A DNA stretch of 64,000 nt from Sipunculus nudus (taxonomy: Eukaryota > Annelida > Sipuncula > Golfingiida > Sipunculidae), in contig CM049311.1 in assembly GCA_026874595.1 (NCBI GenBank), positions 34,887,176-34,951,175 on the forward strand, read 5' to 3'. The notes below the pieces were generated by a model that was given only the letters and a program-made list of their open reading frames with translations, was not told the origin of the DNA and made no database searches. This document shows, piece after piece, positions 5,032 through 60,210 of the stretch (position 1 is its first letter; each line of letters begins with the position of its first letter). Both the position numbers and the translations under genes were made by a program.

Positions 5032-6953
5032 AATTGACCTAACCACCACAGCCCATATGCTCTGCCCTTTTAACCCCAATTATGCTTCTGGGCCCCCCAA
5101 AACGCTCATACACAGAAGGAGCCCATGCCCATGATTTTGAGAGCTATATACAGGAGAATAGTAACATCACGCAGGTTGATGATGTAAGACATGGCATTGA
5201 CTGACATCATCAGCTGGAATTGCTATATCTCTGGTCTCCAGTGATCAATATGTTACAGTCATTGTGAAGGGTCTTTTGAATTGTCTCATACCAATTATGT
5301 GGCAGGTAAGCCTGGTAGTTGGTGGAATGGCTCCTGCAATCTTTGGCCTAAAACATTTTATACTGTCTCCTTTGTATAACCAAGGGACCCATGGGTCACC
5401 GCCTCAGCTGAAGTTTTATTTACAAGTTTTGTAAATTTGTAATAAAAAAATCTGTATATATAGGTTAAAACATCAGAATTCTAAGTTGCAATAATTATTT
5501 ATCCAGACTGTACATCATATTGGGTCGTTTTATGCATACACATATATTTTATTATTTTTAAATCACAAATGTTTAAACTAAATTTTAAAGAAATAATGCC
5601 ACAACATGGCATTTATTCCGAAAATAAAAGATTCAGTAAATTTGATCAAATAAAAATCATCTTTTCAAATAAAGTATACACACTATAAATTGAATGAGGA
5701 ACAAACAACATTGTGCTTTTTACTATCTCAACTATATTTTATAATTTATCAGATGAACATCCACACTTTCACAATACACCACTTTGTGGACACAATTAAA
5801 TGTGCACTTTAATCATTGTAACCCTGGTGGTATAATACAAAATCTAAAATGTAGCATAGCCTAGAATAAGAATGAATCAAATACAGAAAACATTCATCTA
5901 GTTTATGCATCAGCTGGGGGGGGGGGTGCAGGGCAGAGGGGAAGCCTGTTAGTAGTGGCCAAGCTGAGCCAAGGCAAGCTGCCTGGAGAGGGTTACATAA
6001 CACAAGTGAAGGCTGAACTACTAGGTGGGTTTGATGTAAACAACACTTGACATGGTGTATGAAAATGTGAATAAAAGCTTCTCTTTTTGATCAATTCCTT
6101 TGAAATTTCAGTGTTTGAGGCTTAAATCCTTATGTATGTATGCTGTGAAAATTAAATCAATAGTGCTAACAGGGAAAAAACATGCCACAGCCAAAGTTGG
6201 ACAAAATTTAAGGTATTGATTTTTTTATTTATGCTAATAACTTAAAAAAATTGCAAAATTCAGATCTAATTTTGGGTAAACAATTGAATCTTGATTTAAT
6301 AAACTTATTTCCCTGAAAAAAAGTCTCTAGCTTCAGCAATTCTCATGTTAAGTGAGTAAAAAATATTTGGTGATTTTTAAAAAATTGCAAAATATTTGGG
6401 CCCATAACATCAAAATAATACTCAATACAGACCTCATTTTTTGTTCGTAACAGAAAATGTATGGAAGAATATAAATACTATTAAAATATGATCAAAAACA
6501 GATCAGTGGTTTTGATATTAGGCAGCCTTGAAGTGTAACAATGGCTTTTTTTATGGATAACGGAGGTTTTTCCTTAATATTTAACAGGAAAGAAGTCCTA
6601 GTGACCCAATTTTCGGTATGGTAGGAGATTTTGGGACCTCTAACAGTATGCAAAATGTTGGATTCATAGGTCAAGCTGTTTTAAAATGTGCCCTGTTAAC
6701 GGACAGCCGACAGACAAAGGACCACGACTATAGCTCAGATGAATTATAGTCAGCTGAGCTAAAAACATCCAGGAAAACATCCTGACACAGTTACTGGTTC
6801 AGACTAGATGTGTTCTGTTTGGGAGAGTCGCCCAAATTATGCACTAATCCGGTGACTGACTGTTAACATGATTGGTTGATCGCAACTAATCTGCTCATGT
6901 TTATTAATTGAATATTTGATTAAGGTCACAGGGAGGTCATGGTTAGATCAACG
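5032..6953. mobile_element. Composite TIR element, copy 1
   Basis: The left TIR AATTGACCTAACCA (5032-5045) is matched in inverted, degenerate form at 6940-6953. The segments 5032-5378 and 6766-6953 align along their lengths with the flanks of copy 2 (11679-12030 and 13092-13305). A hairpin-ended insert (5379-6765) sits at the same internal point in both copies. There is no transposase frame and no clear target duplication. Confidence 0.6.
5379..6765 (+). mobile_element. Hairpin-ended element, copy A (inside composite copy 1)
   Basis: The left end has CAAGGGACCCATGGGTCAC followed by CTCAGCTGAAG (5381-5412). The right end is a hairpin, AGCTCAGATGAATT...AGTCAGCTGAGCT (6732-6760), followed by AAAAAC. 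Towards the right end, wording such as GTGCCCTGTTAACGGACAG is shared with the other copies. The interior is AT-rich without a coding frame and includes a poly-G run near 5917-5926. Confidence 0.6.
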
Positions 6954-7520
6954 CCCCATAGCAAAAGCTCACTGGTTTGCTAAAATCTTGCAATCCACAA
7001 GCAATGGACTTTCAGTGGTCAATATTCATTTAACAATTTTTTTAAGCTGGACTTCAGTTTTCAAGGTAGTGAACATAACTACACCAGCAGGTCCTTGCAC
7101 ACACTTTTAAATTGTAAATATAATGAGACAAAGAAAAGTTAAAGAGCTTAGAGCTATATTTGTACACATATATACATCACATGGTTCACAAACATTAGCT
7201 GACACCTGGGCATGCAGTTCTGCAGCTAACATCATGAATATTCATTAACTTTACAAATGATCTGGTCAGATCAACTGTGAATATTCATGAGTTTATATCA
7301 AAATAGCTGACCAAATAATAACAAGTAAGGTACCCTATTGCTTATGCCTAAGCCTGTGTCTTCTGGAAAGAAAAGTGTGTATAAAAAAAATAAACCTATA
7401 CTTAATTTTCATGTCTCCCTGAGTATTTTAGCTGTGGTTTCAGTAATAATTACATAGCACAATATAAGGTGTAAGAGTTGGCCTGAATATCCTTCTGAAG
7501 ATAGATAGGTCACTTTATGA

Positions 7521-8469
7521 AACAAGGGACCCATGGGTCGTGGTGCTCAGCTGAAGTTTTCTGTGTGGTTATTTTCATTTATATAAAATCAAAGCATATG
7601 GAAGATTTTGATTTATTGTTTGCATACTGTGGTTGCCTTTTTGTTCGCGAGGGTTTTAATTTCGCGATATTCGCGAATGGGAAATAATCGCGAAAATGAA
7701 ACCTACGGGAATAATTGGCCAATGGATTACGTCCTTCTTATTTAATGTAGCCAATATTTGTATGGGAATAGATTAGAACAATGACAATTGTTATAATAAG
7801 TTACATCCATGCAGGTATAGGGAAAACGTTCCCCTTAATTTGAACTTAACTACCTGTGCTTTGTGTTGGCCCATTGTTATATGAGAAAAATATCACAAAC
7901 TCATGACTTATTCTCATTATAACACACATAGGTATGGCTTTACCAAATATTTGGGTTCTGGTGAGATTGCGAAAATGAAACCCTCGCGAAACATTAAAAA
8001 TTGAAAAATCGCGAAATTTCAGTCTCGCAAATATGAAGCCAACCACAGTATCTGAATATGAATATTAAGAGGGACTGTGACCGCCTTTAGCAATAGTCAA
8101 TATGGCATATATCATTGGGTTTTTCCTTCTCAGTTCTCGGTTTCAGCACACAACTCTAAACCTTTTGAGGCACTTGTGTATCTATAATGCAACCACGAAA
8201 GAAGAAAGCCTTTTATGGTTTCTATACACCTAATGGAACTAATTATCCTAATTCAAGTGTAAATACTGCTTCATATGCCTAATATAGCTTTGTCCTATTT
8301 ACATGAACAAAAAGTTGTTATTGATTGTGGTGCAAGAATTCCAGGAAAGTTAACAAAGCTATATATAATATTCGACATTTATGTATATACTTCTACCCGG
8401 CCAGGTGGACATTCTACAGACAAAGGTCATTGCTATAGCTCAGATGACTTGAGTCAGCTCAGCTAAAAA
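7521..8469 (+). mobile_element. Hairpin-ended element, copy B
   Basis: The left end is AACAAGGGACCCATGGGTC followed by GTGCTCAGCTGAAG. The right end hairpin is AGCTCAGATGACTT-GAGTCAGCTCAGCT (8437-8464), followed by AAAAAC. It is about 950 bp and stands alone, without the outer TIR element seen around copies A and C. A separate TA-flanked MITE (7627-8048) is nested inside it. Confidence 0.6.
7627..8048. mobile_element. TA-flanked MITE rich in TTCGCGA words, copy 1
   Basis: The ends are CTGTGGTTGCC and its inverse GGCAACCACAG-like (GCCAACCACAG), with TA on each side. It contains repeated TTCGCGAA/AATTTCGCG palindromic words just inside both ends. It is 422 bp and non-coding. A shorter relative lies at 10674-10966. 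Confidence 0.7.
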
Positions 8470-10673
8470 CCAGCTACACACAAGACAGCTGCAGTGGGAG
8501 AATACATCAGACAGAATAAATGGTCATGGACATGGCTTCTGTGATATGCTCTGATGTTAGTTTAACATTTATACAAAGTGATACAGAAATATGTGCATAT
8601 GTGGGCTGATCAAGGGGAAAAGACACCATTAAAGGACCAACTTCTTTTAGTCTACAAAAGCTCTGAGGCTATACACACACAAAAAATTCTTTGTATTCGC
8701 TATATTTTCAGAGAACATTCTATTTTTGGTTGAACGAGCCCCCCTTCCCTGTATTCTTATGAAATAATAGGTCATTTTAAGCTCCCACTTTGTTCCTGCT
8801 TCATACTGCAATTGGTACAGTTATTTTTCAAAATTACAACCACCAACAGGACCTTGATATAGTGGTTGCATTTTTAAGGTTGTCTATGCGAGGTCTTATA
8901 TAATTAGCAAAAATGAATCGGGACTGTGAACAAGTGATCCTTATTTTGAGGTGGTTGTGAAGGGAGGTTTTAATGTATATATAACGGTTTGAAAAACCGC
9001 TGTATGAAAGTGATGGGATAAATTTCATCCATGTCGCACACATCCGTCCTCCTGATTTAACACCAAGAACATGAGCTTTACAGTCCATTCCACCATTTTG
9101 TGTCCACCTTTGTTGTTGCTATGAAATTTGATTAGTTACATATAGAGGTAAAAAAACTGAAATGTAGTTAAGAAGATTAATGGGCCTAATTTTCAACAAG
9201 AGGAAATAAACACAAACTTAACATACCTGTAATATTTAAGAAACACCAACTGAACATAATATTTAAGAAAAGTAATTATTTTAGAATATAAGAAAACATT
9301 CTACATTTGACAACATATCAGCCCCACTTATAGCAGTCAATTTGATGAGCCAAAGATGGTTACTCAACCAGGGACACATCTGATCTGACATCATTGGAAA
9401 GAGTCCAGAAAATTGTGAAATATGAACTGGAGACTTTTTTAAACATTTTTTATTTCATATTTGGTTGTCACTTTCAAATGCAGCTTGAAAAAATATAACA
9501 TTATAGGAAAATGATCTCATAAAAAATGGACACAGGTGGGTGGAACAGGAGTATAACATTTTCATTCTGTCTAAAGCTCAACTAAAACAGGTAAAATATA
9601 CTCACTTTGGCTTTTAAAGGAAGATCACAGCAATGAATAGTAAAAGCAGAACTAAACAAACACTTTAAAAATCAACTTTAGAGTGTCTGTGATGAACAAA
9701 TCTGTTTAAAGTGAATCCTGCCTTCCTCACATAGTGGTCATACAATACAGTCATCCAAGATCTCCTTTTTAACCACTGCTTCGTATAGCAAGGTTCTCGA
9801 AGTTCCACCACCATGGCTGGTAATGAGTGAGGGTAATCAGACCAATAAGTGTGGTATCCAGCTCAAAATTTTAAAGGGGCATAATCAGGAGCAATATTTT
9901 GCCTATTATTTTGCAATTTTATTTCAGTTTTGCTTTATACAAAAGTTCCCCAGCAAAACCATCTCAGCACACAATCTCAGTACCTTGTTTACCAGCTTGT
10001 TATTGTTCTATATGTTGGTAAACACAGTCCACGTGTGTCCATTTACCAGCGGAACATGTTTTACATCTTTTTGGCCAAGTCACTCTGAGCATCTCCTGAT
10101 TGACACAGTGATTATGTGTCACCTGTGTTCGCACCCAATCCACTGCTTTTAACACTCGTTAACAGGAGCAAACAAACTGTTTAGGGCATTACTGGCAGGT
10201 ACAAACTTATTTTAGAGGGAAGAAGTTATTTTTCATGTCAATTCAACATGCTTTGTAGATGACTGGGTCCTTTTAAACATGCGACACCCGCTCTTGTTTG
10301 TCCATACACCCCGATTCTGGTGCAGAGCCAAGAAACACACCAAAGAGAGCAGGTGCCACAAGTTTAAAATTTGGAGCTGGTTGCACATAGCGGAACCACA
10401 CCCTCATTGGTCTGATTAAAATTATCACGCTGTAACCATGACCTAAAGCAAAGGAGATTTGGGATAAAAGCAGTGTATAACTGCTGCGTGAGGAGTGTAA
10501 GTTAATCCATATACTATTCTAATGTTTAAGTGACTGCCCCCTCAAAACAGAAGAATTCCTTTTACGCTTTGGCATCAGCTGATGGTTGTCCTAATGAGAT
10601 CACACTGAAGTTTAGGATACCCATTTCTTTATCCCTGTAACTGTTCTGTGACCTATTTTCAACACAGCATATA
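8470..10673. other. Intergenic region without a recognised gene
   Basis: AT-rich sequence between the repeat block and the 3' end of DNAJC8. No exon-like frame with good splice signals was found on either strand. It may contain the distal DNAJC8 3' UTR or simply intergenic DNA. Confidence 0.4.
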
Positions 10674-10966
10674 CTGTAGTTGGCTTTATATTCACGAGGT
10701 TGAAATTTTGCGATTTCTTCATTTTGAATGTTTTATAAGTTTCATTCATGCAGTTGCACCAGAACCTATGTTCAGCATTTCCAATACCATGCACAGATTA
10801 GATTACTGATTAAAGAACCATGTTTTTAGAAGTGTAATTCTTAACTGTTTGTGCAGATGCATCACATCTTTTTCTTCTTAGTTGACGGGGCATCTTATTC
10901 CTGCGATTATTTCCAATTCGCAAATATTATGAAATTAAAACCCTCATCAACAAAAGGCAACCACAG
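10674..10966. mobile_element. TTCGCGA-type MITE, copy 2
   Basis: CTGTAGTTGGC at the left is inverted to GGCAACCACAG at the right. Interior words such as TTTTGCGATTTC and CAATTCGCAAAT mirror the ends of the copy at 7627-8048. The left flank has TA and the right flank TG, probably a decayed TA. It is 293 bp and non-coding. Confidence 0.6.
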
Positions 10967-11461
10967 TGTGTCATTCATTGTATGAGCTCATTTGCTCTCA
11001 CGGATATACTGTTTTTTTACCAAACCATTTGGGGAATATATAAATACTCTTCCATGTCTGCAGCCTGTTATCAGAGGCTGTTTCATTTTACTTGACAAAA
11101 TACATCTATACATATAAACATGTTGATGAAACCTGCCTGACAGTTTGGTCTATAGAACCTCACGGCAGGAATATACAAGGCAGGCGTTTAGCATGATATC
11201 AAAATCTCAGTCTCTCTAAGTTGTTGGTTACATGAGCATGATGAATTATTCCACTCAAACGCAGCCAAAAATCACCATTGGTAGACAGGCACCTTTACAT
11301 TACATCATTAGATGTGCTCTTTTACTTCATGACCCTGTTGGATTGTTTTCTCCTCTGATACGGTCAGACCTGAAAGAGGCGTGGATGTGATGGCTGCGTT
11401 TTGACGGGATAACGAACACAGATGAGGTGGGCGTGATGATCGAGCTTGATGACTGGTCCCT

Positions 11462-38469
<27,008 letters not shown>

Positions 38470-39829: not shown

Positions 39830-42800
39830 GAAAATTTTTGCAGTTTCATGACCTTTGGATTCCTCTCATAAATATTGAAGAGGGTGTCCCTTGGAGCATT
39901 TTGCATGAAACCCTTTAAAATGCAAATTAGCTATCGCATTTATTGGAACTTCTTATTTTACTCATAACTCTCTTAGTCTTTGTCCCATTTTAGAGATTAA
40001 GATGTGTACAACTTTGTTTTCATGGTAGAAGAGTATGGTGAACGTTTAAAACAACCATTTAAGTACTTTTTCATATGCAAATTAGTTGTCGCCATTATTG
40101 GAACTTCTTATTTTGCTCATATCTCTCTTAGTTCTTGTCCTGCTTTAGAGATTTCAAACTACCATTTATTTAATTCTTAATATAGAAATTATAGCTGTCG
40201 CCGTTATTGAAACTTCTAATTTTGTTCATATCTCTATTAGATTTTGTCCTATTTTAGAGATTAAGGTGTCTACACCTATATGTATTCATGGAAGAGGAGT
40301 AAGATGAACCATTTATAAACTACCATTATATTAATTCTTAATATGGAAATTAGTTGTCGCCATTATTGGAACTTCTTATTTTGTTCATATCTCTCTTAGT
40401 TCTTGTTCTATTTTTAGAGATTAAGGTGTCTAAACCCATGTTTTTATGGAAGAGGAGTATGATGAACCATTTTTAAGCTACCATTATATTAATTCTTAAT
40501 ATGGAAATTAGTTGTCGCCATTATTGGAACTTCTTATTTTGCTCATATCTCTCTTAGTTCTTGTCCTGTTTTAGATATTAAGATGTCTACACCTATGTAT
40601 TCATGGAAGAGGAGTATGATGAACCATTTTTAAACTACCATTATATTAATTCTTAATATGGAAATTAGTTCTCGCCATTATTGGAACTTCTTATTTTGCT
40701 CATATCTCTCTTAGTTCTTGTCCTGTTTTAGAGATTTCAAACTACCATTTAATTAATTCTTAATTTAGAAAATTTAGCTGTCGCCGTTATTGGAACTTCT
40801 TATTTTGTTCATATCTCTATTAGATTTTGTCCTATTTTAGAGATTAAGGTGTCTACACCTATGTATTCATGGAAGAGGAGTATGATGAACCATTTTTAAA
40901 CTACCATTATATTAATTCTTAATATGGAAATTAGTTGTCGCCATTATTGGAACTTCTTATTTTGTTCATATCTCTCTTAGTTCTTGTTCTATTTTTAGAG
41001 ATTAAGGTGTCTAAACCCATGTTTTTATGGAAGAGAAGTATTATGAACCATATTTAAGCTACCATTATATTAATTCTTAATATGGAAATTAGTTGTCGCC
41101 ATTACTGGAACTTCTTATTTTGCTCATATCTCTTTTAGTTCTTGTCCTGTTTTAGATATTAAGATGTCTACACCTATGTATTCATGGAAGAGGAGTGTGA
41201 TGAACCATTTTTAAACTACCATTATATTAATTCTTAATATGGAAATTAGTTCTCGCCATTATTGGAACTTCTTATTTTGCTCATATCTCTCTTAGTTCTT
41301 GTCCTGTTTTAGAGATTTCAAACTACCATTTAATTAATTCTTAATTTAGAAAATTTAGCTGTCGCTGTTATTGGAACTTCTTATTTTGTTCATATCTCTC
41401 TTAGTTTTTGTCCTAATTTTAGAGATTAAGGTGTCTAAACCCATGTTTTTATGGAAGTGGAGTATGATGAACCATTTTTAAACTACCATTATATTAATTC
41501 TTAATATGGAAATTAGTTGTCGCCATTATTGGAACTTCTTATTTTGCTCATATCTCTTTTAGTTCTTGTCCTGTTTTAGAGATTTCCAACTACCATTTAA
41601 TTAACTCTTAATATAGAAAATATAGCTGTCGTCGTTATTGGAACTTCTTATTTTGTTCATATCTCTCTTAGTTTCTGTCCTAATTTTAGAGATTAAGGTG
41701 TCTTAACCCATGTTTTTATGGAAGAGGAGTATGATGAACCATTTTTAAACTACAATTTAATTAATTTTTAATATGCAAATTCGCTGTCGCCATTATTGGA
41801 ACTTATTTTGTCCATTATCTCTCTTAGTTTCTGTCCTAATTTTAGAGATTAAAGGTGTCTTAACCCATGTTTTTATGGAAGAGGAGTATGATGAACCATT
41901 TTTAAACTACCATTATATTAATTCTTAATATGGAAATTAGCTGTCGCCTTTATTCCAACTTGTATCTTTCTGAATTCTTGTCCTTTTTAGAGATTAAGGT
42001 GTCTACACTCTACACCTATGTGTTATGGTAGAAGAGTATGATGAACCGTTTCAAACTACCATTTAAACCATTTTATATATGCAAATTATATGTCGCTAAT
42101 ATTGGAACTTCTTATTTTGCCCATATCTCTCTTAGTTCTTGTCCTGTTTTACAGATAAAGGTGTCTACACCTATGTTTTTATGGTAGAGGAGTATGATGA
42201 ACAGTTTCAAACTAAAATTTAATTAATTTTTAATATGCAAATTCGCTGTCGCCATTATTGGAACTTATTTTGTCCATATATCTCTCTTAGTTTTTGTCCT
42301 ATCTTAGAGTTTATGGTGTCTATGTACATCTATGTTTTCATGGTAGAGAAGTATGATCAACCGGTTCAAACTACCATTTAATGAATTTTTTAATAAGCAA
42401 ATTAATCGTCCCCATTATGTGAGCTAGATATAATTATATCATTCTAAATTCCCGTTTTTTATGTGCATTTACTGGCTTAGATGCATGAAAACGTAGGTAG
42501 TCTACGAGGAACAGCTGGAGAAGAGAAGGTAATGTGGAACTAACTCAGGTTATACAACGTCTGTAGTCTCTTAGCTGGTACTCACTGCTATTTGACTATG
42601 CGGCGATCGTCTTTATTTTTGCTAGTCGATCCGAGGCCAACTCGTCTTATATTCTGTATCACTCGTAAACCAAGTGAAGAAGAGCAGATCCTCTAATTGC
42701 TGCGAAAAGCATAAGAACGCCTACACCATCAGTACAAGGAGATTTGTACGATTATCTTCAAATGCTCGTTGAGTTGCGACCATCGTGACAGCGTTCCATT

Positions 42801-44984
42801 GTTTTCAATAAAATTTCGAAAATGGGGCTCCATTTTCTAGAAAAAAATTGTCTTAATGGTAGAAATGGTGAAGGTTATTTGTCACAGCAGCCAATACTGG
42901 AAACTTAACATCCCTAGCAACTCAACCAGTTTTATCCTAACTGGGATTGCATACGTCCAGAACAGACTGGGTGTTCTCCCGTTGTAGGCAGTGCGCATGA
43001 GCAAGGCTACCCCCGACATTCAGGATCTTTACAATCCTATAAACAATTCAAAGTTCTCTACAGAATAAGCAAATATTCCATAACATAAATATTCCATATT
43101 TACTGTGGATGTATAAAATCAATGACGCTGTTCACTAGTTAGGATCTCTTCCAGGTATCCTCGTAATAATTTCAATATTCTTTGGTCTTTTTTGTATAGG
43201 ATGAAACAGTCCTTGTGGCATTTTAAGACGAATTGTTCACCAGCGTATAAACCTTCTCCCAAGTCTGCCGCTTTGCCATCAGTCTTGTTGCGTTGGCTCC
43301 TACTGTGGTAGAGAAACGATCTGATCTGGTATTTATTAGCGGTTTTCTATGATTGGTATGACTGGAAATAGCATTCTTCTTCCATCTTGCACCTTAATTT
43401 GCTAAAAGAAAAAAGGTAAGTTTAGCAAACCTTTTTGCACTTGAATTAAAAACAAGAGAAATGTTAATGGCAACTTTTTAAAAAATCAGGTGTATTAAAA
43501 CGTGCTAACATTTGAATTCTGGAAATCTTACTCGGTTCGAGTGCCCTGTCATTAATCTTTCATGCCCGGCGAATTGGTTCCTTGGGCTATGCCATGACAG
43601 GAGTTCAGTTAGCAGTGCCCACTGAAGCTCCTGAGTTTAAGATTTGAATGGTCTAAAATCAGCTGTTTTTTTTTAATTATTTTAACAAACTCAGATTATC
43701 TATTGACACAGGTGGTTAAAGCTGACGAAATTACATTAAATTTGACTCGTTGACAGGTCTGTGCAGTATATGCTAAATAAATAATGGTCTTCAATCGAAA
43801 TACTATAAGTGCCTATTTTACACACAAAATGATTTGCTGCTTCAATACTAAACTATTTCGGCATGTTCAAATGGCATCAATTATTATTATATTCCCATTT
43901 AAGTATAAATAAGTATATACATATCACATCGTGCTCATTTATCATTTTTTATGGCTAATTCAAATACCATTTTCACTTAGTTAATTCATATCATGCCAAT
44001 TGACTGATTATCACGGCCTATTGAGGCCTAAAATACTTTACTTTTAAATAATAGGCGCAAATGTCAAAAACACAGACTAATACAACGCATTTTCAGTTGT
44101 AAAATAAATAAAATGTTAATTTGCAATTCAAAATTTTTAACGTAAATCCATCACCATGACAATTTAGATTGTAGTCATTTTAGTTTTTAAAGACAGAACA
44201 AGCTGAGGCTAATTTACAAACAGCGCATTAAATGTCAGCATTTTTTTGTCTGTAATAATAAGGAAACATTTACGTACAGAAAGTACAGACATTTTTAAAA
44301 TTCTTTTATTTTTTTCTTAATTTTCATTTCAGTCACTTAATCTCTTCAAAAGGTAATTTTAAATGTTCATCATTAAAACATAGATGAAGATACCTTGATC
44401 TCTAAGATAGGACAGGCACTAAGATAGTTTGAAATGATTCATCATACTCCTCTACCATGAAAACATAGGTGTAGACACCTTATTATCTAAGATAGACAGG
44501 AACTAAGACCGATATGTGCAAAATAAGAAGTTCCAGTAATGGCTACAGCTAATTTGCATATAACAAATTATTAAATAAAACACCAAAGGCTAATTTGAAA
44601 CTGACCATCATAATCCTTGACCATAAAACTATGGGTGTAGACATCTTAATCTCTAAGATAGGACACGGTCAAAGATAGATATGATCAAAAGTAAAAGTTC
44701 AATTAATGGCGACGGCTTATTTGCATATTAAACATTCATTGAATGGTAATTTAAAACCGTTCATCATAATCTTTGACCATGAAAACATGGCTGTAGACAC
44801 CTTGATCTCTAAGATAGAGCAAGGACCAAGAGAAATGTGAGGTAAACTAAAAGTTCCGATAATGGCGACGGCTTATTTGCATATTAATGGGTTTTATGCT
44901 ACATGCTCAAAGTTTTCAGGGCGACACCCTCTCTTGTATTAAAGAGTAGGATCAAAAGGTCATGAAACTGCAAAAATATTTTGT
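39830..44984. mobile_element. Foldback-type element with tandem-repeat arms
   Basis: The outer sequence AAAATTTTTGCAGTTTCATG with ACCTTT (39831 on) reappears inverted at about 44955-44984, and GAGGGTGTC(C/G)C follows in both. The left arm (to about 42400) is 17 or so tandem units with GTCGCCATTATTGGAACTTC, TTATTTTGCTCATATCTCTC and ACACCTATGTATTCATGG; the units are about 158 or about 110 bp in a higher-order pattern of about 584 bp. The right arm (44380-44880) holds about three inverted units. The middle has no coding frame. No target duplication was confirmed. Confidence 0.72.
42420..44380. other. Central segment of the foldback element
   Basis: About 2 kb between the arms, not repetitive internally. 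It has some GC-richer patches (42480-42800) but no frame over 60 codons on either strand, and no splice-bounded exon that I can support. It could be a remnant of an autonomous core. Confidence 0.35.
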
Positions 44985-46254: not shown

Positions 46255-48216
46255 GCATTCCATGCATGCGCCTTGATGTTCACCTAACTAGGGATGACCT
46301 CCATGAGTCAGCATATAAGAGGGGCCATTCAATTGAGACTGCCCTTGGGGGGGGGGGGGGGGGGGTCATGGCTGTACTGATATTTCTGGACCTATCAGCA
46401 GCATATGATACTTTAGATCCCAGTATCTTACATCAGCGTCATAATATATTTTTGGCATAGATTCCTGTGCCTTGAAGTGGTTACAATCATATTCAGTAAA
46501 CAGAGTGCAATGTGTGGTCATTTGTAGCACTACTTCCAGTGACTGAACCTTTATAATTTGACGTGCCTCAGCTAGGGGTCAGTGCTTGGGCCTAAGATAA
46601 ACTGCATATACACAAAGCCAGTCGGTTATATAATCCATAGCATGATTACGCTCTTTACAAAGCGCTTTACCTATAGGGCTACTTCCTATATCGTAAGGCG
46701 CTGTTTGTTATGACCTCGTATCCTGAATTGCAACACCAGAGGGGAGCACTGTATTTTTGTCCAATCAGATGAGACCTTGTGCTGGTTGACAAAGCCAAGC
46801 GAGGAAAACACGGAGCCAATCATATTAATTTCTTTTTGAGTGACAGCTCATCCCCTAGCGTAACCGTCTGAACAGGCCACAGGCTCAGAGAGAATTGCCC
46901 CTGACGTGGTTTGCTTAGGGCCTTGGGCACATAGGATGCTCGGCCGGTGAGCTGTAATTCAAACGAAACGTAACAACAAAGGCTGCGTGCACACCTCGCT
47001 GGCTGGTTTCAGTTCTGCGGACAACAGATACATGGCTACGCTCACACAGTCATAATGTCATAATCGAATCGGTAGATGATGCGAGAATGCAGAGGGAGCA
47101 ATTTAAATTCGACCGGAAACTCTTCAAGCGGCGCTTGAAGCGCGGCAATGGGCGGAGCCAGGATGCCTGTCGAGTGTTTGTTTATTGGCATCTGATTGGC
47201 TGCTTGTCACATCGTACGCACGTTTATTTCAGTGGACAACAAACCGCCATCTGGTGTCTAAATATATCATAAACGGTCAAAGCTGGCAGCGTGAAAATCA
47301 GTTGCTTCTTTAGAAGTGCAAGATTTCCGCTGCCTCGGGAGCGTATAGCATGATATGCACCACTATATTTACGCTGATGATACCCAGGTATATAGTCATC
47401 AAACCAAAGGTCGACTGGGGTTCAATACTGGGAATCCAAACTTTCTGCTTGTGCAAAAAGTTGGATGAGTTCCAATATGCTGATCAGGAAAAAAATTGAA
47501 ATTATAACTTTTTACTTATAACTTCGGGTTCTTTCATCAAAGGGCTACAGCATATCTATTGGAAATGTCGGCTGATGCTTGCGGTACTTTAGTTCAATCT
47601 ATGGTATTTTATAGATTTGATTATGTAAATATTTTGTTGTATGGAATACCAAATATTTAACTGATAGGCTCCAGCGCAGGCAAAATACAACAGCCCGACT
47701 TGTCACAAAATCCAAATGACGAGTTCACATGTTGCCTGTCCTTTTTGGCATTCATTGGCTGCCTGTTGAATATAAGTTGCGATATAAGGTTTTATTATAT
47801 ACTGTTAATTCACTTCATGCACCTACACCAGCGTATATATCGGTGAACTAGTGAAGCGGTACCAACCAGCACGAGTTTTAAGATCAGCCTCTATTGTTCA
47901 GATAAAAGTTCCAAGGTCAAGGACGATTACATACGGAAATAGATCCTTTAGAACTGCAGCTCTCATATTATCGAATAAACTTCCTATAGTCACACTAGAG
48001 ATGAACTCTCATTTTTCGCTCTTAAGAATTTTTTAAAGACTTATCTATTTAAACAAGCATATTTAAATTGGTGGTATAGCTTCTTGTGGTATTGTATGTT
48101 CTTATAGTAGATACATATTATGTATTGTACAGCGCTTTAGAGCATGTTTTTAGAATATGAATAGGGCGCTTTAGAAATGCTGTTTGTTATTATTATAATT
48201 ATTATTTATTATTATG
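46255..48216 (+). mobile_element. Degraded CR1/L2-type LINE, 3' part of reverse transcriptase to tail
   Basis: In shifting frames it shows the hallmarks of a non-LTR reverse transcriptase: ESAYKRGHSIETAL, then AVLIFLDLSAAYDTLDPSIL, an RVQCVV-like segment, and YADDTQVY after the insertion. The C-terminal segment (about 47600-48060) has DRLQRRQNTTARLV-like and VKRYQPARVLRSAS wording, typical of the clade. The 3' end has GCGCTTTAGAAATG then a TTATTATTATT tail (to about 48216). Frameshifts and stops make it inactive. A poly-G run (46348-46366) and a Mutator-like element (46647-47344) interrupt it. Confidence 0.85.
46647..47344 (+). mobile_element. Mutator-like non-autonomous element, copy 2 (inserted in the LINE)
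   Basis: It is a full-length inverted counterpart of 20069-20764. It starts TACGCTCTTTAC and ends CCTCGGGAGCGT, giving terminal inverted ACGCTC. It is flanked by a perfect 10-bp duplication, ATAGCATGAT (46637-46646 and 47345-47354), and LINE reverse-transcriptase sequence resumes directly after it. It is 698 bp. The open frame at 47087-47272 is not conserved as a protein and is taken as chance. Confidence 0.85.
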
Positions 48217-49935: not shown

Positions 49936-49938
<3 letters not shown>

Positions 49939-50618: not shown

Positions 50619-50679
<61 letters not shown>

Positions 50680-50683
50680 GAGA
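50602..50683. repeat. Compound (TA)n(GA)n microsatellite
   Basis: TA dinucleotides run directly into GA dinucleotides (50641-50683). Confidence 0.95.
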
Positions 50684-50784
50684 TGATCATATTATGGAAA
50701 AGCGGTTAAATTTTCGGTTCACAGGTTTTTATTTCGGATGAACGATTTTTCGGATGAACAGTCTTCTGATATACGACGCTCTAC

Positions 50785-50786
<2 letters not shown>

Positions 50787-50848
<62 letters not shown>
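50787..50848. repeat. (TA)n microsatellite
   Basis: Nearly pure TA repeat, one of several in 49.6-54.6 kb. Confidence 0.95.
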
Positions 50849-50852
<4 letters not shown>

Positions 50853-51294
50853 CAATTTTACTTATATATTTTAATAACTTTTTAGTCTTGAAAAAAAGAC
50901 TGTATATTGAGCAGGTATATTAAGTAATCGTGTAATTATCAATCCCTGGTCGCTTTTTTCTAACAAGATTTTGCAGCTGATTCCTGACAGCATGAGTTTC
51001 AATGCCTCTTTATGAGTGCAATATTATATAATACGGCAATAAAATAACTGCTAGGAAACCCTTATTTTAGGATTGGTCCATGGCAATTGGTAGCACTGTC
51101 TATTGTATGAAGATGGAGGGAAAAGGAAAACCCAGGGAAAAGTATAATACCTCTCGCCACCTGGCGGTGGTAAAATAAGACGTCCTCACAAAAAAATTCA
51201 TATATAACTATATTTCAACTATGCATAAATTCAGAACGATTTCCTTCTAATTTGTTTACAAATTATTCTGCATTTCAGATTATTAGGTCACGGG

Positions 51295-51297
<3 letters not shown>

Positions 51298-51350
<53 letters not shown>
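51298..51350. repeat. (TA)n microsatellite
   Basis: Pure TA repeat of about 26 copies. Confidence 0.95.
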
Positions 51351-51353
<3 letters not shown>

Positions 51354-52930
51354 CCGACACTGTATATCACTATGTTATCATAGACACAAATAGTAGCCAG
51401 TTATATTTAAGGAGAGTGCCCATCTCCCTTAGTTATACATACTGGTCCAGAGAAGATGAAGTCGGAGAAGTACCTACTTAATTTCCATATATTATATCAT
51501 AAAACAAATGCCATTATTTTCTCGATATGATGAACTCTACTTCACTCATGTGCGCTCTTGTCGCTGTGAATGCAGCATATGTATATATTAGCAATATACA
51601 GTACATGCATGCGTATGTTAAGAATGTGATGGAAAATACAAAACCATTGAAACCACGCTTAATTGATTAAATTGCTTTTATTTTCAAACGGCATCAATAA
51701 TGAGTAACTGGTTCAGAAAACACTCCTCCTTGAACAAATGTCACAGACAATACATTCAGTCCTGTAATAAAAACTCTTGATATTGCGTCAGGTCATTCAT
51801 TACGCGAACCTGCCGGTGAGCCGAGTTTTTACTTAAGGCCACAAAACATGCTTGTCGGGCTAAGTTCAAGTATGTGCCGGCAGGTATCAACGGTGGGTAT
51901 AGAGTGTGAGCTCCCAGTGGAGTCAATTTATCATCAATGGGTAAGGGGGGGGGGGGGGATGTTCACATTTGAAATATCACATTTTCTCCATTGCACATGT
52001 AATTATATTTACAGTATAGTTAAATTCTAACCCACGCAGGCTCAGACAGATAGTATTTTATATTACATACTCAGAAATAATGTTCAGTTTGGCATCGTGA
52101 TAGTCATAGTCAGTCAAAAGTTTCAAGTTTGTTTAAATGCGTAGGATGTGTTAGTTACTTAATTTAAATGTAACACTTAATATTTATGCTATTTTATGCA
52201 TAATGGTAATTAAATTGAACTTATTTCTCTTACATTGATTGTTCAAATAATTAAATCAGTTTCCCTAGGCACTCCCCATGGTTCGGTTTGGTGCGTTCGG
52301 CTGTCTTAAGTAGTCATCTCTGGCAAAATCGCCTTCAATAAAATGAACAAAAAAGGCATTTAAAATTAATATTAGATCCATGAATTAATTATCATTTTAG
52401 ACCTGGTGTAGTGGTCTTTCTGATGGTATATGTGTCTATGAAATTCACATTCTTATATTTGAAATTTAAACATACTTTAACATTTTAATTTTTTAAAGGT
52501 TCACGATTTTAAGCAAAAAGTACTTCCAGTCGGCTTATACTAAACTCAAAACCGTTTTGTGGTGATTCCTCTCTCATGTTTTTTTTTCTTATTCTAAACT
52601 GAATTTTTAAATATTGATTCAATAAAAAAGTTTTAATTTCATTTTAAAAATGGAACAAACACGATAGAGGAAACAAAAAAGGATTGTGATACAGCCATGT
52701 AGTTAAATATAAGTCCAATAAAAATTCGTTTGCTGTTACTGATTGCTTAAATTTGTGTACCAGTGAAAATTAAAATTAAAACAATGGTAAAATTTCCTAC
52801 ATGAAAATAAATGTAAATTTCATAAATATATATATATACAATCAGAAAAAACTTTGCACCCAGTTTAACAAGCTATATAGTTAATGGGCTGTTATATTCA
52901 TTTGAAACCCCTTTTGGATTATTTTTTAAA
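51351..52930. other. Region with no recognised gene
   Basis: AT-rich DNA with a poly-G run near 51945-51957. No splice-bounded coding segment could be supported on either strand. Confidence 0.4.
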
Positions 52931-52936
52931 TCAGGG

Positions 52937-53092
52937 TTTTTTTTGTCAGGGATGCTACCGTTAGAGTTGGAGAAAACCATCGGTCTTGGACAGTCCGCTA
53001 CAACCCACTCTCACAGCCAAGACGGGAATCGAACCCATGTCTCCATAGGAGAGTAGATTGTTAACACTCGACTGTACTGGCCAAATCATCCC
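52937..53092 (-). mobile_element. tRNA-derived SINE candidate
   Basis: On the minus strand a tRNA-like head (about 53090-53018) has a TGGCCAGTACAG A-box-like start and a perfect B-box, GGTTCGATTCC (53025-53035), with a pairing T stem (ATGGG/CCCGT). A short body follows, then an A8 tail (52944-52937). It is about 155 bp. Target duplications are not clear, so a tRNA pseudogene remains possible. Confidence 0.45.
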
Positions 53093-53473
53093 CTGTAATG
53101 AAAAATAATATGATATTTCAATGCTTTACAGCTATTCATATTTTACATATGATAATGAAAAGATATTTGTTTGATTGACAAACAACAATGGTCATCAGAT
53201 CATAACCCGCCACATTTGTCCATTCGATCGTCAGCAGATGGCGCTCTATGCATGATTAATTGCTTGAATGGAGTTGGTGGTTGTGATGTTGTACGATGCC
53301 AAATTCGTGTCTCTTAGTAAAGGTAAGGCGTATATATATAGAACTTGGGTCTGTTATGTGATGGGCATTGCATCCAAGACAGACACCGGGCCCTGAAGTG
53401 ATTGGCTTCGATCGTCACAAAAATAAACCAGAAATCACTTAAATCTAGCAATGCATGTTTTTATTCTTTCCTA

Positions 53474-53512
53474 AAACAAGGGACCCATAGTTCACGGTGT
53501 TCAGCTGAAGTT
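53474..53512 (+). mobile_element. Orphan left end of the hairpin-ended family
   Basis: AAACAAGGGACCCATAGTTC followed by ACGGTGTTCAGCTGAAGTT matches the left ends of copies A-C. No right-end hairpin in matching orientation follows before copy D, so this is a truncated or disrupted element. Confidence 0.55.
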
Positions 53513-53799
53513 CACCTTGAATGTAAAAATCTAAAATAATAACAAATGGAGATAATGTCTGAATGGAAAATGTAACACAAGTCATGGTTGGTTGATATGC
53601 TAGGTTTGTATTGACGTATAAGAAATATTTTTGTCAATTTTGTATAGAGTATACAGTTGTAATAATAAATAAAGGGGGGGGGGGGGGGGGGTGAGACACC
53701 AGCATATTTATACAGGATATGAAATTCAATCCAACAGAGATTACAGGAAAAAAAGTTGATTCGCAAATTGCTGAATTTTAAAAATGGAGAGTCTGACAG

Positions 53800-54440
53800 G
53801 TAGACAAACAAAGCTGATCACTATACCTCCCATTCTGCTGGGCAGGAAAATTATAAACAAATGATCCTCATTTTTAATTATATCAAATTGTTTTTAAATT
53901 TAACAATTCTATACATTTGCAATATTACACATCTGAATATATAAGTTGCCCTAAAAAATTCAGACTCGATTAGTTTAAACCCATACACATACAGCATATG
54001 AAAGTTATTTCCACAGTGCTTATAGGAAAAATGTTCATAATTAATATATTTAATGAAGAACAGAGAGAAGAAGGACCGACAGAGCTGATCAGAGCAGATT
54101 TCCCATTTGCTTTCGGCAAGGATATGTTTCAATTAGTTCTTATTTTTTTACTATTTTATTTAATTCAGTCAATTTTATACATTTGCAATAAAACTGATGT
54201 ACCCAGTGCAGAGGTGCAAGACTAAGAGGCAAAGTGGGGGGGGGGGGGGGGGGGGGGGAATACAACACATCTGCAGATACATACACGACCAGGACATTCA
54301 AGCCGATCACTTATTTCCCATTCTGCTGAAGTAGGAAAAAAAGAACAAATGTTTGTATTAGATCCTCATTTTTTTATTTCATCTTTTTTATCAAATTTAA
54401 AAAAACATATTTATATGAATATATAAGTTGCATCATCATA
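53800..54440. repeat. Diverged tandem duplicate with poly-G spacers
   Basis: The segment 53810-53960 (CTGATCACTATACCTCCCAT, AAATGATCCTCATTTTTA, ATATATAAGTTGC) recurs at 54298-54440, and a weaker middle relative lies at 54084-54200. Poly-G runs sit at 53673-53690, 54236-54258 and about 54699. It is not coding. Confidence 0.5.
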
Positions 54441-54494
54441 CATCCCTAATTTTGTCACATAACACCACACATTGCATACAAATGTATAAACATG

Positions 54495-54573
<79 letters not shown>
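54495..54573. repeat. (TA)n microsatellite with interruption
   Basis: TA repeats broken once by TACATA. Confidence 0.95.
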
Positions 54574-54574
<1 letters not shown>

Positions 54575-55575
54575 GCCACACAAATATATCTCTATTTTTT
54601 GTCACAAAGTTTATTTTCTTGTGGCTGACTTCATGGCAGAGTTGAAAGTAATCATATAAATACGAGCAGCTTTATATTTGGCAAACTTCTTTTTTGTTGG
54701 GGGGAGGGGGGGGGGGAGGGGATAAACAGAAAATGATTTCTTCCTGGTAATGGGCTAATTATATGCAAAAACTATGGTATAATGAGTAAAAGGGTTATGG
54801 AGAAAACAAAGGCACTTTGATAACGTTCGCTCAAACCTGTATGCCAGGGGTGGGCAAACGAGTCCATGACATTCTCGCATAGAAGAACGCTATCCAATCA
54901 GTTTTTACAGAAATAAATGACGGCCAAGCCAGGGCAATGTTACCAGAGGAGTGTGAAATCTGAGAAAATAAATGTTGCTTTTCTTGAAATGAAGGAAATG
55001 AGTCGTATTTTTTTTAAATATATGAGAAAAACTAAATAGGTGTGCAAATAATTAGCCTTCACACTTGACAGTTTTGGTCACCGTCATGATCTGTACAAAA
55101 AGTTATAAGACACAGGCTATCTTTACATGTTGTTTATAAAAATTACATCCTTACAAGTGTAACGAGCACTGGCCTTAGTACATTCCTGTACCACAGACAA
55201 AAAACATAGCTGTCCAGAGAAATGCAGTCAGGTATTTCTTTTATAAACGGTGGGCTTTCAAATTGGGTTTTACCTGATTTAAAATTTCTTGAAACTAAGT
55301 CAGTTTTACAGAGGAACTCGCTTTCCTTTTTCATCGACAAGTCATCTTTAGTTGTACTCATTTGAATCCTGACGATCCTCTGAAGGGGAGTTAAGAATAT
55401 GAAAATGAAATATATAAAACAAAGCCTTGTGCATCATTCAGTACAGAGAAACTTTTGAAATTTTGCCCCCCCCCCCCCCCAAAATGCATTTTTTCCCTTC
55501 CGTCAACCTATATTTGTAAACCTGTTTTTTAGCTCAGCTGACTGAAAGTCATCTGAGCTATAGCGATCACTCTTT

Positions 55576-55618
55576 GTCCGTCGTCCGTCTGTCCGTCTGT
55601 CCGTCTGTCCGTCCGTTA
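55576..55618. repeat. GTCCGTC(T) tetranucleotide-like run
   Basis: Repeated CCGTCTGT/CCGTCGT words directly inside the hairpin end of copy D. GACGGAC-type words also occur near the corresponding end of copy C (about 13015-13032) and of the 16.6-18.7 kb element (about 18632-18660). Confidence 0.8.
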
Positions 55619-55619
55619 A

Positions 55620-58600
55620 CCAGGCACAAATCGTAACCGCTGGACCTAGAACCTTGTAACTTGGGATTCTGAGAGGTCCATAAAAAATCTCCTTGGAAAC
55701 CAGAAATTAGGTCTCTGTTACCCATATCCTTCGAGCTATGTGGCCCCAAAGTACCCCCCAGAAAAGTCAAAAATTTCATACAAAAACTTCAATATCTCAT
55801 TAACTACTTGACTGATGGTCATGATTTTTGGCATACATATTGATCATGAGATGTTACATCACTTCCTGCAGACTGGTGGCGCCACATGTATTTTTCGATT
55901 TTTTACGAATTTTTTTCTCTATTTTTGAGACCTTTAAAAATGTGAACATCTGTTAACAAGGCACAAATCATAAAGACTGGACTTAGAATCTTAATTCTTG
56001 ACACACTGAGAGGTCCATGAAAAATCTCCTTGGAAACCAGAAATTAGGTCTCTGTTACCCATATCCTTTGAGCTATGGGGCCCCAAAGTACCCCCCAGAA
56101 TAGTAAAAAATTTCATACAAAAACTTCAATATCTCAATAACTACATCACTGATGGTCTTCATTTTTGGCATACATATTGATCATGAGATGTTCGATCAGT
56201 TCCTGCAGACTGGTGGCGCCACATGTATTTTTCGATTTTTTACGAATTTTTTTCTCTATTTTTGAGACCTTTAAAAATGTGAACATCTGTTAACAAGGCA
56301 CAAATCATAAAGACTGGACTTAGAATCTTAATTCTTGACACACTGAGAGGTCCATGAAAAATCTCCTTGGAAACCAGAAATTAGGTCTCTGTTACCCATA
56401 TCCTTTGAGCTATGGGGCCCCAAAGTACCCCCCAGAATAGTAAAAAATTTCATACAAAAACTTCAATATCTCAATAACTACATCACTGATGGTCTTCATT
56501 TTTGGCATACATATTGATCATGAGATGTTCGATCAGTTCCTGCAGACTGGTGGCGCCACCTGTACTGTTTGATTTTTTACGATTTTTTCCTCTATTTTTG
56601 AGACCTTTGAGGATGCTGTCATCTGTTAGCGTGGCACAAATCGTAACGACTGGACCTAGAATCTTCATTTTCGACACACTGAGAGACCTATGAAAAGTCT
56701 CCATGGAAACCAGAAATTAGGTCTCTGTTACCCATATCCTTTGAGCTATGGGGTCCAAAATTACCCCCCAGAATAGTCAAAAATTTCATACAAAAACTTC
56801 AATATCTCATTAACTACATCACTGATGGTCATGATTTTTGACATACATATTGATCATGAGATGTTTCATCAGTTTGTGCAGACTGGTGGCGCCACCTGTA
56901 TTTTTCAATGTTCACGAATTTTTTTCTCCATTTTTGAGACCTTTAAGAATGTAGTTATCTGTCAACAGGGTACAAATTGTAACGACTGGACCTAGAATCT
57001 TCCTTCTTGACACACAGGGAGACCCATGATAAGTCTCCATGGAAACCTGAAATTTGGTCTCTGTTACCCATATCCTTCGAGCTATGTGGCCCCAAAGTAC
57101 CCCCCAGAAAAGTCAAAAATTTCATACAAAAACTTCAATATCTCATTAACTACTTGACTGATGGTCATGATTTTTGGCATACATATTGATCATGAGATGT
57201 TACATCACTTCCTGCAGACTGGTGGCGCCACCTGTATTTTTTTATTTTTTTACGAATTTTTTTCTCTATTTTTGAGACCTTTAAAAATGTGAACATCTGT
57301 TAACAAGGCACAAATCATAAAGACTGGACTTAGAATCTTAATTCTTGACACACTGAGAGATCCATGAAAAATCTCCTTGGAAACCAGAAATTAGGTCTCT
57401 GTTACCCATATCCTTTGAGCTATGGGGCCCCAAAGTACCCCCCAGAATAGTAAAAAATTTCATACAAAAACTTCAATATCTCAATAACTACATCACTGAT
57501 GGTCTTCATTTTTGGCATACATATTGATCATGAGATGTTCGATCAGTTCCTGCAGACTGGTGGCGCCACCTGTACTGTTTGATTTTTTACGATTTTTTCC
57601 TCTATTTTTGAGACCTTTGAGGATGCTGTCATCTGTTAGCGTGGCACAAATCGTAACGACTGGACCTAGAATCTTCATTTTCGACACACTGAGAGACCTA
57701 TGAAAAGTCTCCATGGAAACCAGAATTAGGTCTCTGTTACCCATATCCTTCGAGCTATGGGGCCCAAAATTACCCCCCAGAATAGTCAAAATTTCATACA
57801 AAAACTTCAATATCTCATTAACTACATCACTGATGGTCATGATTTTCGACATACATATTGATCATGAGATGTTTCATCAGTTTGTGCAGACTGGTGGCGC
57901 CACCTGTATTTTTCAATGTTCACGAGTTGTTTTCTCCATTTTTCAGACCTTTAAGGATGTAGTTATCTGTCAACAGGGTACAAATTGTAACGACTGGACC
58001 TAGAATCTTCCTTCTTGACACACAGGGAGACCCATGATAAGTCTCCATGGAAACCTGAAATTTGGTCTCTGTTACCCATATCCTTTGAGCTATGGCACTC
58101 CAAAGTACAGCTCAGAATAATGGAAAATTTGATACAAAAGCTAAAGTATCTGAACAACTAATGCAGAGATAACCATAATTGTTTGCATGGATATTGATCA
58201 TAGAGTGTTTCATAAGTTTCTGCAGACTGGTGGCACCACCTGTATTTGTTCGTTTTCTTTTACGAAATTTTTCTGTATTTTTGAGACCTTTAAAGATATG
58301 AACATATGTTCACAGGGCACAAATCATAAAAACTGGACCAAGAATCTTCATTCTTGACACACAGGGAGACCCATGAAAAGTCTCCATGGAAAACTTGAAA
58401 TTAGGTCTCTGTTACCCATATTCTTTAAGCTGTATGGGTCCAAAATACCCCCCCCCCCCAGAATAATGGAAAATTTGATACAAAAACTGCAGTATTTCAA
58501 TAACTACAACACTGATGGTCATGATTTTAGGCATACATATTGATCATGAGCTGTTCCATCAGTTTCTGCAGACTGGGTGTGCCACCTCTATTTTTTTTTT

Positions 58601-58940
58601 CAAATTTTTACAAATTTTTTTCTTTTTTTTGAGACCTTTAAAGATGTGGTTATCTGTCAACAGGGTACAAATCGCAACAACTGGACCTAGAATCTTCATT
58701 CTTGTCATGCAAGGAGGCCCATGAAAGGTGCCTGTGGAAACTTGAAATTAGGTCTCTGTTACCCATATCCTTCAAGCTATAGGGGTACTCCGAAGTATCC
58801 CTCAGAATAATGGACAATTTGATACAAAAACTGAAGTATCTGAACAACTAATGCAGAGATCACCATGATTTTTTGCATGGATATTGACCATTAAGTGTTT
58901 TTATTAGTTTCTGCAGACTGGTGGAGCCACCTGTATTTTT
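55620..58940. repeat. 337-bp tandem array, ten units
   Basis: The marker GGTCTCTGTTACCCATAT recurs near 55710, 56047, 56384, 56720, 57056, 57394, 57729, 58064, 58404 and 58751, at intervals of 335-347 bp. Each unit also has GGACCTAGAATCTT, ATATTGATCATGAG, CTGCAGACTGGTGGCGCCAC and CTCTATTTTTGAGACCTTTA. A three-unit block of about 1010 bp is duplicated almost exactly (about 56.2-56.85 kb versus 57.2-57.86 kb). The repeated open frames are not genes. Confidence 0.92.
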
Positions 58941-60012
58941 GTATCCGCCAAAACGAAGTTTTGCGGATACTATGTTTTTGACCGAGTTCCTCCGCCGCAG
59001 CGGCGTTCGTTTCCAGAGAGCTCCTCGGAGACTAATGGACCGATTTTTCCCAAACTTACACCTATTATCGGGTCACATGTGAACTGGTGCCTAACCAATT
59101 TGCATTGACCTCTGACCTTTCCTCTCTATCCAGTGTCCATTTGTGGGTCTGTTTCCACTCATAAACCCTCATATCTCGGGAACCGTTTGACCGATCAGGA
59201 AATAAAATTGATACAAATGTAGCCCTTGGATTGCTTTATAACATACACAAAAAATGGTGGCGCCACCTGTAACCATGTTTGCACAGTGTCCATCTGTTCA
59301 TCTGCCTTGGGTTAAAATCACTCATATCTCTGCAGTGAATTGACTAATTCACCTGAAATTCGTCATGTGTATACATCCAGGATAGCTTTCTTGATTTTAT
59401 GACAGGTGGCGCCACCTACGTTCACGTTCACGCTGATGACATCCAAGCTTATATCTCGGGAACCGTTTGACCGATCAGGAAATAAAATTTATACAAATGT
59501 AGCCCTTTGATAGCTCTGTAACATACACAAAAAATGGTGGCGCCACCTGTAACAATGTTTGCACAGCGTCTGTCTGTTAGTCTGCCGTGGCCTAAAATTA
59601 CTCATTTCTCTGTAGTGGTTCGACATAACTGCCTAAAATTTTGCAGGTTTATACATCGTGGACAGCTTTCTTGATTTTATGACAGGTGGCGCCACCTACA
59701 TTCTAGTTAACGCTGGACACATCCAAGCTCATATCTCAGGAACCATTTGACCGATTGGGCCAAAATTGTGCATGTGTTTAGATCTCACATAGGTCTTTAT
59801 CATACACAAAACTGGAGGGGTTACCTGCAAAGATTTTTGCACAGTGTTTGTCTGTTTGTCTGCCATGGGCAAAAATCGCTCATATACATGTAGTGGTTTG
59901 ACTTTTCTGCCTAAAATTTTGCAGGTGTATACAACTTGGACAGCTTTCTGGATTTGTGGTAGGTGGCACAACCTACATACACATTTATAGATACATGTAG
60001 TCACTTGTCGGT
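58940..60012. mobile_element. Nested element with a 281-bp tandem array and a hairpin end
   Basis: It starts with the hairpin GTATCCGCCAAAAC-GAA-GTTTTGCGGATAC (58941-58970). It then has three units of about 281 bp marked by ATATCTC(G/A)GGAACC(G/A)TTTGACCG (59171, 59452, 59733), each with paired GGTGGCGCCACCT-type sites. The copy D array unit is interrupted at CCTGTATTTTT (58939) and resumes at CCCGTATTCTAG (about 60014), so this is an insertion. Confidence 0.6.
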
Positions 60013-60210
60013 TACCCGTATTCTAGTTTTAAAAGTTTACACATTTTTCTCTATTTTTGAGATATATAAATACAGACTAAATCTTGGCCTGTTGGTTAAT
60101 CTGTTTGATGCTTCAGTTGAATGGGTATATACTACCATTCTGATGATAAAATTTCCTTTTGCGAATCTCTTCCCAGTCAGCTGAGCGTCATGACCCATGG
60201 GTCACTTGTT

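Follow-up and report, generated by a model that had tools for sequence, protein, structure and literature searches.

The closest described systems are non-autonomous rolling-circle transposons. In the portions of PMC4067079 drawn upon here, HINE/DINE-1 elements carry a 5′ subterminal inverted repeat (subTIR) with a palindrome or inverted repeat (IR), a 3′ subTIR followed by a palindrome, and internal microsatellites or tandem repeats; they insert into T-rich sites without duplicating them and have a Rep/helicase/endonuclease partner. Satellite-like arrays within such elements are known from Drosophila, mites and the oyster (PMC4067079, PMC7492417, both in part). The Cg_HINE of the Pacific oyster, in the sections of PMC7492417 considered here, consists of a left flank (LF) with subTIR, IR and a mostly 4-nt microsatellite, a satellite-like core array, and a right flank (RF) with subTIR and palindrome; in its group 2, related flanks enclose unrelated arrays, and the same sections also name the Pearl elements. 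The 64,000-nucleotide stretch of Sipunculus nudus DNA analyzed here (GCA_026874595.1, CM049311.1, positions 34,887,176 to 34,951,175; hereafter the window) holds four copies, c1 to c4, and an orphan end of an element family that we take, at a probability of about 0.93, to be HINEs, i.e., non-autonomous Helentrons, a type of rolling-circle transposon. The family is a new one of a known kind (HINE/Helentron) and very abundant. The likeness to Cg_HINE is one of description; the Pearl elements of bivalves, likened by description as well, reportedly combine flanks, a microsatellite and a tandem core, as c4 does here. From the HINE/DINE-1 elements, as far as the same portions of PMC4067079 describe them, the present family differs in the letters of its ends, in the agreement between its subTIRs (12–15 or 13 bp there as against ~8–12 bp here) and in having tandem 5′ ends.

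Ends and copies in the window

A sequence-only reading of the window had proposed four hairpin-ended copies and an orphan end at 53474; all four copies lie where it placed them, and a 3′-end profile recovers the orphan end at 53474–53512. Together they constitute family 1 and are read below from the hairpin end, which puts c1–c3 on the minus strand and c4 on the plus strand:

5379–6765, minus strand: c1, putative HINE copy of 1387 bp, with the 5′ T-run/subTIR/IR at ~6728–6765, the 3′ subTIR near 5402–5411 and the palindrome at 5386–5397.
7521–8469, minus strand: c2, putative HINE copy of 949 bp, with the palindrome at 7528–7539 and an interior that differs from those of other sampled copies.
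12031–13091, minus strand: c3, putative HINE copy of 1061 bp, with about one 336-bp-type monomer at 12694–13009.
55526–60210, plus strand: c4, putative HINE copy of ~4.7 kb, with (GTCC)n at 55575–55616 and a 336-bp array of 9.8 units at 55615–58940.
55526–55562, plus strand: 5′ end of c4, comprising the T-run, the subTIR AGCTCAGCTGACT and the complementary IR (DNA hairpin −10.6 kcal/mol, z −3.9).
60175–60210, plus strand: 3′ end of c4, comprising the subTIR, the GACCCATGGGTC palindrome at 60192–60203 and the CTTGTT terminus.
58941–~60030, plus strand: HINE-like element nested in c4, with a hairpin GTATCCGCCAAAAC..GTTTTGCGGATAC, a 280-bp array and a CTAGTTTT end; ends placed by eye.
53474–53830, minus strand: orphan, with its 3′ end at 53474–53512 and a decayed 5′ remnant near 53807–53830, the remnant seen by eye only.
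16630–18707, minus strand: second HINE-like family (family 2), with a hairpin TATGCCCCCGCC..GGCTGGGGCATA, a microsatellite-like stretch, a 180-bp array, GGCGGGGGCAT, an GTGTCGTTCCGACAC palindrome and CTAGTTTT.

With single-base variants, the order of parts in c1–c4 is oligo-T, AGCTCAGCTGACT, 2–7 nt, AGTCATCTGAGCTATAG, the interior, CAGCTGAGC, 4–5 nt, GACCCATGGGTC and CCCTTGTT. In c4, (GTCC)n intervenes between AGTCATCTGAGCTATAG and the interior, none being reported in c1, c2 or c3; a GTCC-type array close to the 5′ end is found in 16 of the 28 paired elements described below, c4 included. As had been proposed, GCTCAGCTGA points inward at both ends of c1–c4, exactly or with 1–2 mismatches (two at the palindrome end of c3), and an IR complementary to the 5′ subTIR follows it in all four copies, inside the ~1–22 nt described for Helentrons and HINEs. 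The CCATGG-type 3′ palindrome is exact in c1, c2 and c4, with one mismatch in c3 and two in the orphan. The asymmetry of the end pair noted in the sequence-only reading is real in c1–c4, its hairpin end being the 5′ end in Helentron terms. In three of the four copies that end forms a clearly stronger fold than its shuffles do (z −3.2, −0.95, −3.8 and −3.9), while the palindrome end folds no better than shuffles in five of five (z +0.8, +1.0, −1.0, −0.8 and +1.3).

In profile searches of the window, full-length hairpin (5′) ends are recovered at four places (E 1.4e-19 to 2.7e-22) and palindrome (3′) ends at five, the orphan's among them (E 6.9e-11 to 2.2e-12), matches that hold by construction because the same copies built the profiles. 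Independently of the profiles, TATAGCTCAGATGA has eight matches in the window at two or fewer mismatches against 0.71 expected, and GACCCATGGGTC has six against 1.17 expected. A scan that was given structure and no letters (a hairpin, its distant inverted copy and a palindrome) finds seven clusters in the window as against 0–3 in 40 shuffles: c1, c4, the 5′ end of c3 paired with the 3′ end of c2, the element at ~16630–18707 (detected as two clusters) and two apparent chance arrangements. The element at ~16630–18707 differs in its letters from family 1 and has its parts in the same order.

The interiors enclosed by these ends vary. The interior of c1 shows no similarity above the shuffle maximum to c2, to c3 or to the opening 700 bp of c4, nor does that of c2 to c3 or c4; c3 matches c4 at 73.7% over 407 bp. 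Over most of its length c1 is akin to two copies of 3.3–3.7 kb on contig C1 (best piece 84.5% over 933 bp); no other member of the 28 paired elements matches c2 over more than 400 bp. The sequence-only reading had seen different tandem units in these interiors, which stands as to their variation and fails as to the second array of c4, which belongs to the nested element at 58941–~60030. That element sits in the T-run of one 336-bp monomer, the remaining monomers representing its empty site. A Pfam scan of seven frames in the window returned no family up to E 0.1. At 53780–54340, three degenerate tandem units carry a motif resembling GATCACTATACCTCCCATTCTGCTG (by eye).

Abundance, insertion sites and a candidate coding partner

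The 1.43-Gb genome contains 21,811 instances of the perfect 5′ hairpin (10,759 on the plus and 11,052 on the minus strand; reversed control, 0 and 0). AGCTCAGNTGACT, of which one complete 5′ end can yield two matches, occurs 39,451 times on the plus and 39,403 times on the minus strand (reversed control, 14 and 11), and the family-2 hairpin pattern 2,550 times. A single match of the IR arm in viral_contigs was rejected as chance, its contig being packed with bacterial-type open frames; a 3′-end scan of viral_contigs and a hairpin scan of genome_contigs gave no matches.

Profile searches for both ends were applied to a sample made up of 200 kb of C1, picked for matches, plus the window, and yielded 53 5′ ends and 48 3′ ends in total. 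Outside the window, the 5′ ends number 48 on the minus strand to one on the plus and the 3′ ends 42 to one, in matching directions. In the 200-kb sample the two ends are found together, with their order and orientation fixed. Twenty-eight elements could be paired without a 5′ end in between, four of them being the window copies. The subfamilies picked among these 28 comprise nine elements of ~2.5–2.65 kb at 92.5–97.6% identity, three of 1.9 kb at 96.5–97.3% and two of 3.3–3.7 kb at 96%. Roughly 0.7–1.2 kb is common to the C1 subfamilies; of the four window copies, c1 alone groups with them. Therefore, partly or wholly different interiors have common ends. Some 5′ ends also stand in tandem at a spacing of a few hundred bases, e.g., at C1 190968/191200 and 223497/223755 (pieces L017 and L019).

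For the insertion sites, the flanks of the 28 paired elements were joined and the fetched DNA was searched with them, mismatched joins in ten rotations serving as the control. Junction-spanning empty sites were found for 14 of the 28, as against 0–3 of 28 for the mismatched joins, and the clean ones are a T-run or TT at which only a few T differ. A T-run of at least five precedes AGCTCAG in 22 of the 28 elements, and TT or more follows CTTG in 25. The 14 empty sites, which include some weak ones, show no fixed-length or longer target duplication, and none is visible at the window copies, in agreement with the sequence-only reading. Its broader proposal, end-directed mobilization with exchangeable interiors, draws support from the co-occurrence of the ends in the 200-kb sample, the differing interiors and the clean empty sites of sampled copies. 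Of the outcomes that would have told against it, a fixed-length duplication and ends that do not go together, neither was encountered within the sample. Many copies have inserted into other family members: 31 of the 53 5′ flanks are family interior, 29 in the same orientation and two in the opposite one, the other 22 being non-family.

An autonomous member had been held worth looking for, and one locus provides a candidate. Helitron_like_N matches at 143 places; three loci with long frames, on C17, C13 and C11, were opened, of which the first is:

C17:35625476–35640366, minus strand: candidate autonomous Helentron of 14.9 kb, with two 5′ ends, GTCC-type repeats, 336-bp monomers, a 2342-aa frame and a 3′ end.

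The two family 5′ ends stand in tandem 724 bp apart, and a family 3′ end lies ~1 kb past the frame. The 336-bp monomers of this locus match c4 at 76.5% over 1298 bp, and the ends of c4 are 95% and 94% identical to its ends, the top of eight comparisons; among the copies compared, c4 is the nearest to this Helentron. The last 2166 amino acids of the frame match Helitron_like_N (4.7e-27), PIF1 (6.1e-23) and, weakly, Exo_endo_phos (4.5e-4). A relative on C13 (92.8% over 6 kb) encodes a protein that clears the cut-off for Exo_endo_phos_2 (32.8 vs 27.4). Rep motif 2 has S before PH in all three frames (RGSPHIH in C17 and C13, RGSPHAH in C11), a form that the passages of PMC4067079 used here assign to the Helentron type. 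Judged from its letters, the C17 locus is a candidate autonomous partner of c4, whose movement its protein or a close relative may effect. Such a candidate, sharing both ends and monomers with c4, is the kind of link that the oyster study could not make for its elements, the sections of PMC7492417 considered reporting no link between Cg_HINE and any of 10 autonomous Helentrons.

Several observations weigh against the HINE reading of the family. The 14 empty sites found in the sample all belong to copies other than the four in the window, and several of them match weakly (77% over 87 bp, 74% over 108 bp) or leave the junction uncertain. Exact agreement between the subTIRs of the two ends is short (~8–12 bp, by eye) and, except in c4, below the 11–15 bp of Helentrons and HINEs in the published accounts as far as drawn upon. 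In the C17 frame, Exo_endo_phos falls under the Pfam cut-off (20.5 vs 24.5 bits) and the C-terminus diverges from that of the C13 frame. The coding partner is a single locus with two tandem 5′ ends, and it rests on C17 because the other two show no corresponding family ends in the DNA fetched: the C13 match ends just past the frame, and the further 3 kb that were fetched contain no family 3′ end, while the 10 kb fetched for the C11 long frame have no family end, both fetched sequences stopping short of the 5′ side. The C11 Helentron was accordingly rejected as the partner.

If the family is of the HINE type, a Rep (HUH nuclease)–PIF1 helicase–endonuclease protein made elsewhere would act on both ends, recognizing the folded 5′ end. 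One strand would be peeled off by strand-transfer steps that start at the 5′ T-run/subTIR/IR hairpin and stop at the 3′ palindrome, and would then be pasted into a T-run without target duplication. Because only the ends would be needed, the interiors would be free to change, and might do so by deletion, nested insertion and tandem-array growth.

Orientation, the c1/c3 pair and competing explanations

Genome-wide, the strands are balanced in both families (49:51 in family 1 and 1274:1276 in family 2). Local orientation was followed at the first 100 places listed per search, all on C1, with nested and tandem copies included and the pairs non-independent. The 100 family-1 hairpins (C1, 96 kb–3.18 Mb) are 15 plus and 85 minus and form 11 runs against 26.5 expected, none of 100,000 shuffles giving as few; the looser AGCTCAGNTGACT listing presents the same picture (nine runs; 0 of 200,000 shuffles). 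Pairs 1–200 kb apart agree at 0.87–0.92, where the local 15:85 ratio predicts 0.74 and the genome-wide one 0.5, and pairs more than 200 kb apart at 0.71–0.73. Within a plus stretch, a 10-kb piece has four of four 5′ ends and two of two 3′ ends on the plus strand. The listed places of family 2 span 34 Mb of C1, and their pairs agree in 12/12 cases below 20 kb, 19/21 at 20–50 kb and 12/17 at 50–100 kb (43/50 below 100 kb altogether) and in about half beyond that; its runs are only mildly few (43 vs 51.0 expected; 3249 of 50,000 shuffles). Between the families, nearest neighbors agree in 9 of 11 cases, a count that 1799 of 5000 circular shifts also attain; family 2 agrees with the family-1 majority within 100 kb in 10 of 11.

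Such local agreement might have arisen from nested and tandem growth, i.e., from tandem 5′ ends and insertion into earlier copies, rather than from replication, an explanation that we regard as a real contender falling somewhat short of even odds. It fits the predominance of same-orientation family interior among the 5′ flanks (29 of 53, with 2 opposite and 22 non-family), the existence of closely spaced tandem 5′ ends (a few hundred bp), and the fading of the family-1 run deficit as places are thinned (28 of 100,000 shuffles at 10 kb, 1,389 at 20 kb and 10,472 at 50 kb), with no deficit left in family 2 after 20-kb thinning. It sits less well with the shortage of runs that persists in family 1 at 10 kb and with the agreement of family 2 at 20–50 kb, and in nine reference elements T-runs do not consistently outnumber A-runs. 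Self-matches of at least 3.5 kb in the sample also speak against it, amounting to 10 rows, all inside one piece. As these rows are near-neighbor and array-like, large segmental duplication was rejected as an explanation of the orientation pattern; strand asymmetry of T-runs was likewise rejected, since the plus strand of the 200 kb of C1 contains 848 T5 and 982 A5 runs, a ratio nowhere near the 1:48 shown by the elements.

Alternatively, and more tentatively, insertion orientation may form domains of tens of kb to ~1 Mb that record fork direction; local agreement would be predicted if Helentrons inserted into DNA that is single-stranded on one arm of the fork, though on the present analysis we consider this doubtful. 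The IS200/IS605 elements, which are bacterial, use the Y1 transposase TnpA without a helicase. In the part of PMC5371812 drawn upon, they transpose as single strands and their insertion orientation follows replication, a bacterial precedent and a mechanistic analogy only. Among titles and abstract openings, in a search that most subscription papers fell outside, there was no report of replication-linked orientation for Helitrons. Were the proposal true, tens of thousands of copies would form a fossil map of replication direction. If the domains prove to be genome-wide, to occur in both families and to be absent from a control repeat, rolling-circle transposition in animals would be tied to DNA replication, and fork direction could be read from sequence alone in a non-model animal.

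A separate question is posed by paralogous host segments at 5032–5410 and 11679–12063 of the window (~70% identity), in which c1 and c3 occupy equivalent positions. The sequence-only reading had remarked neither on these segments nor on the HINE/Helentron type. One ancestral insertion could have been duplicated with the host segment and its interior exchanged later, e.g., by gene conversion between element copies. The flanks are homologous on both sides (local scores of 150 and 299 vs shuffle maxima of 76 and 59), and the boundaries of c1 and c3 coincide, as such a history would have it; we nonetheless judge it the less likely one, given that the interiors are unmatched (score 80, below the shuffle mean of 98.5) and that the 5′ end of c1 is closer to the C1 subfamilies (91–92%) than to c3 (82%). 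For these reasons, the pair more likely goes back to two separate insertions at a preferred T-run. Moreover, c3 has monomers in common with c4, and c1 goes with the C1 subfamilies.

As for the type of the family, canonical Helitrons or Helitron2 would share the rolling-circle protein and hairpin ends, yet they are very hard to reconcile with what is found: in place of a 5′ TC, a 3′ CTRR and insertion at A^T, the ends are T-run/AGCTCAG and CTTGTT and insertion is into T-runs, and as regards Helitron2, an endonuclease domain stands over the cut-off in the C13 relative (weak and below it in C17) and the RGSPH motif fits a Helentron. Cut-and-paste (DDE) miniature inverted-repeat transposable elements (MITEs), with short inverted repeats served by a terminal-inverted-repeat transposase, would suit the short inverted repeat common to both ends and the MITE-like size of c2, and are highly implausible in view of the asymmetric ends (hairpin vs palindrome), T-run insertion without fixed duplication at the empty sites, and the Rep/PIF1 frame between the same ends at C17.

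Other repeats in the window

Apart from these elements, the window has ~8 kb of 96–99-bp tandem repeats around (TA)n at 26986–35271, with a related fragment 2 kb downstream at 37309–37433. A 157-bp tandem array at 39890–42418 has an inverted, diverged part 2–5 kb downstream, at 44495–44912, and the two parts are possibly arms of one element. Finally, a 700-bp repeat is found in opposite orientation at 20068–20766 and 46646–47346 (91% identity), with a third copy on C1 at 89%.

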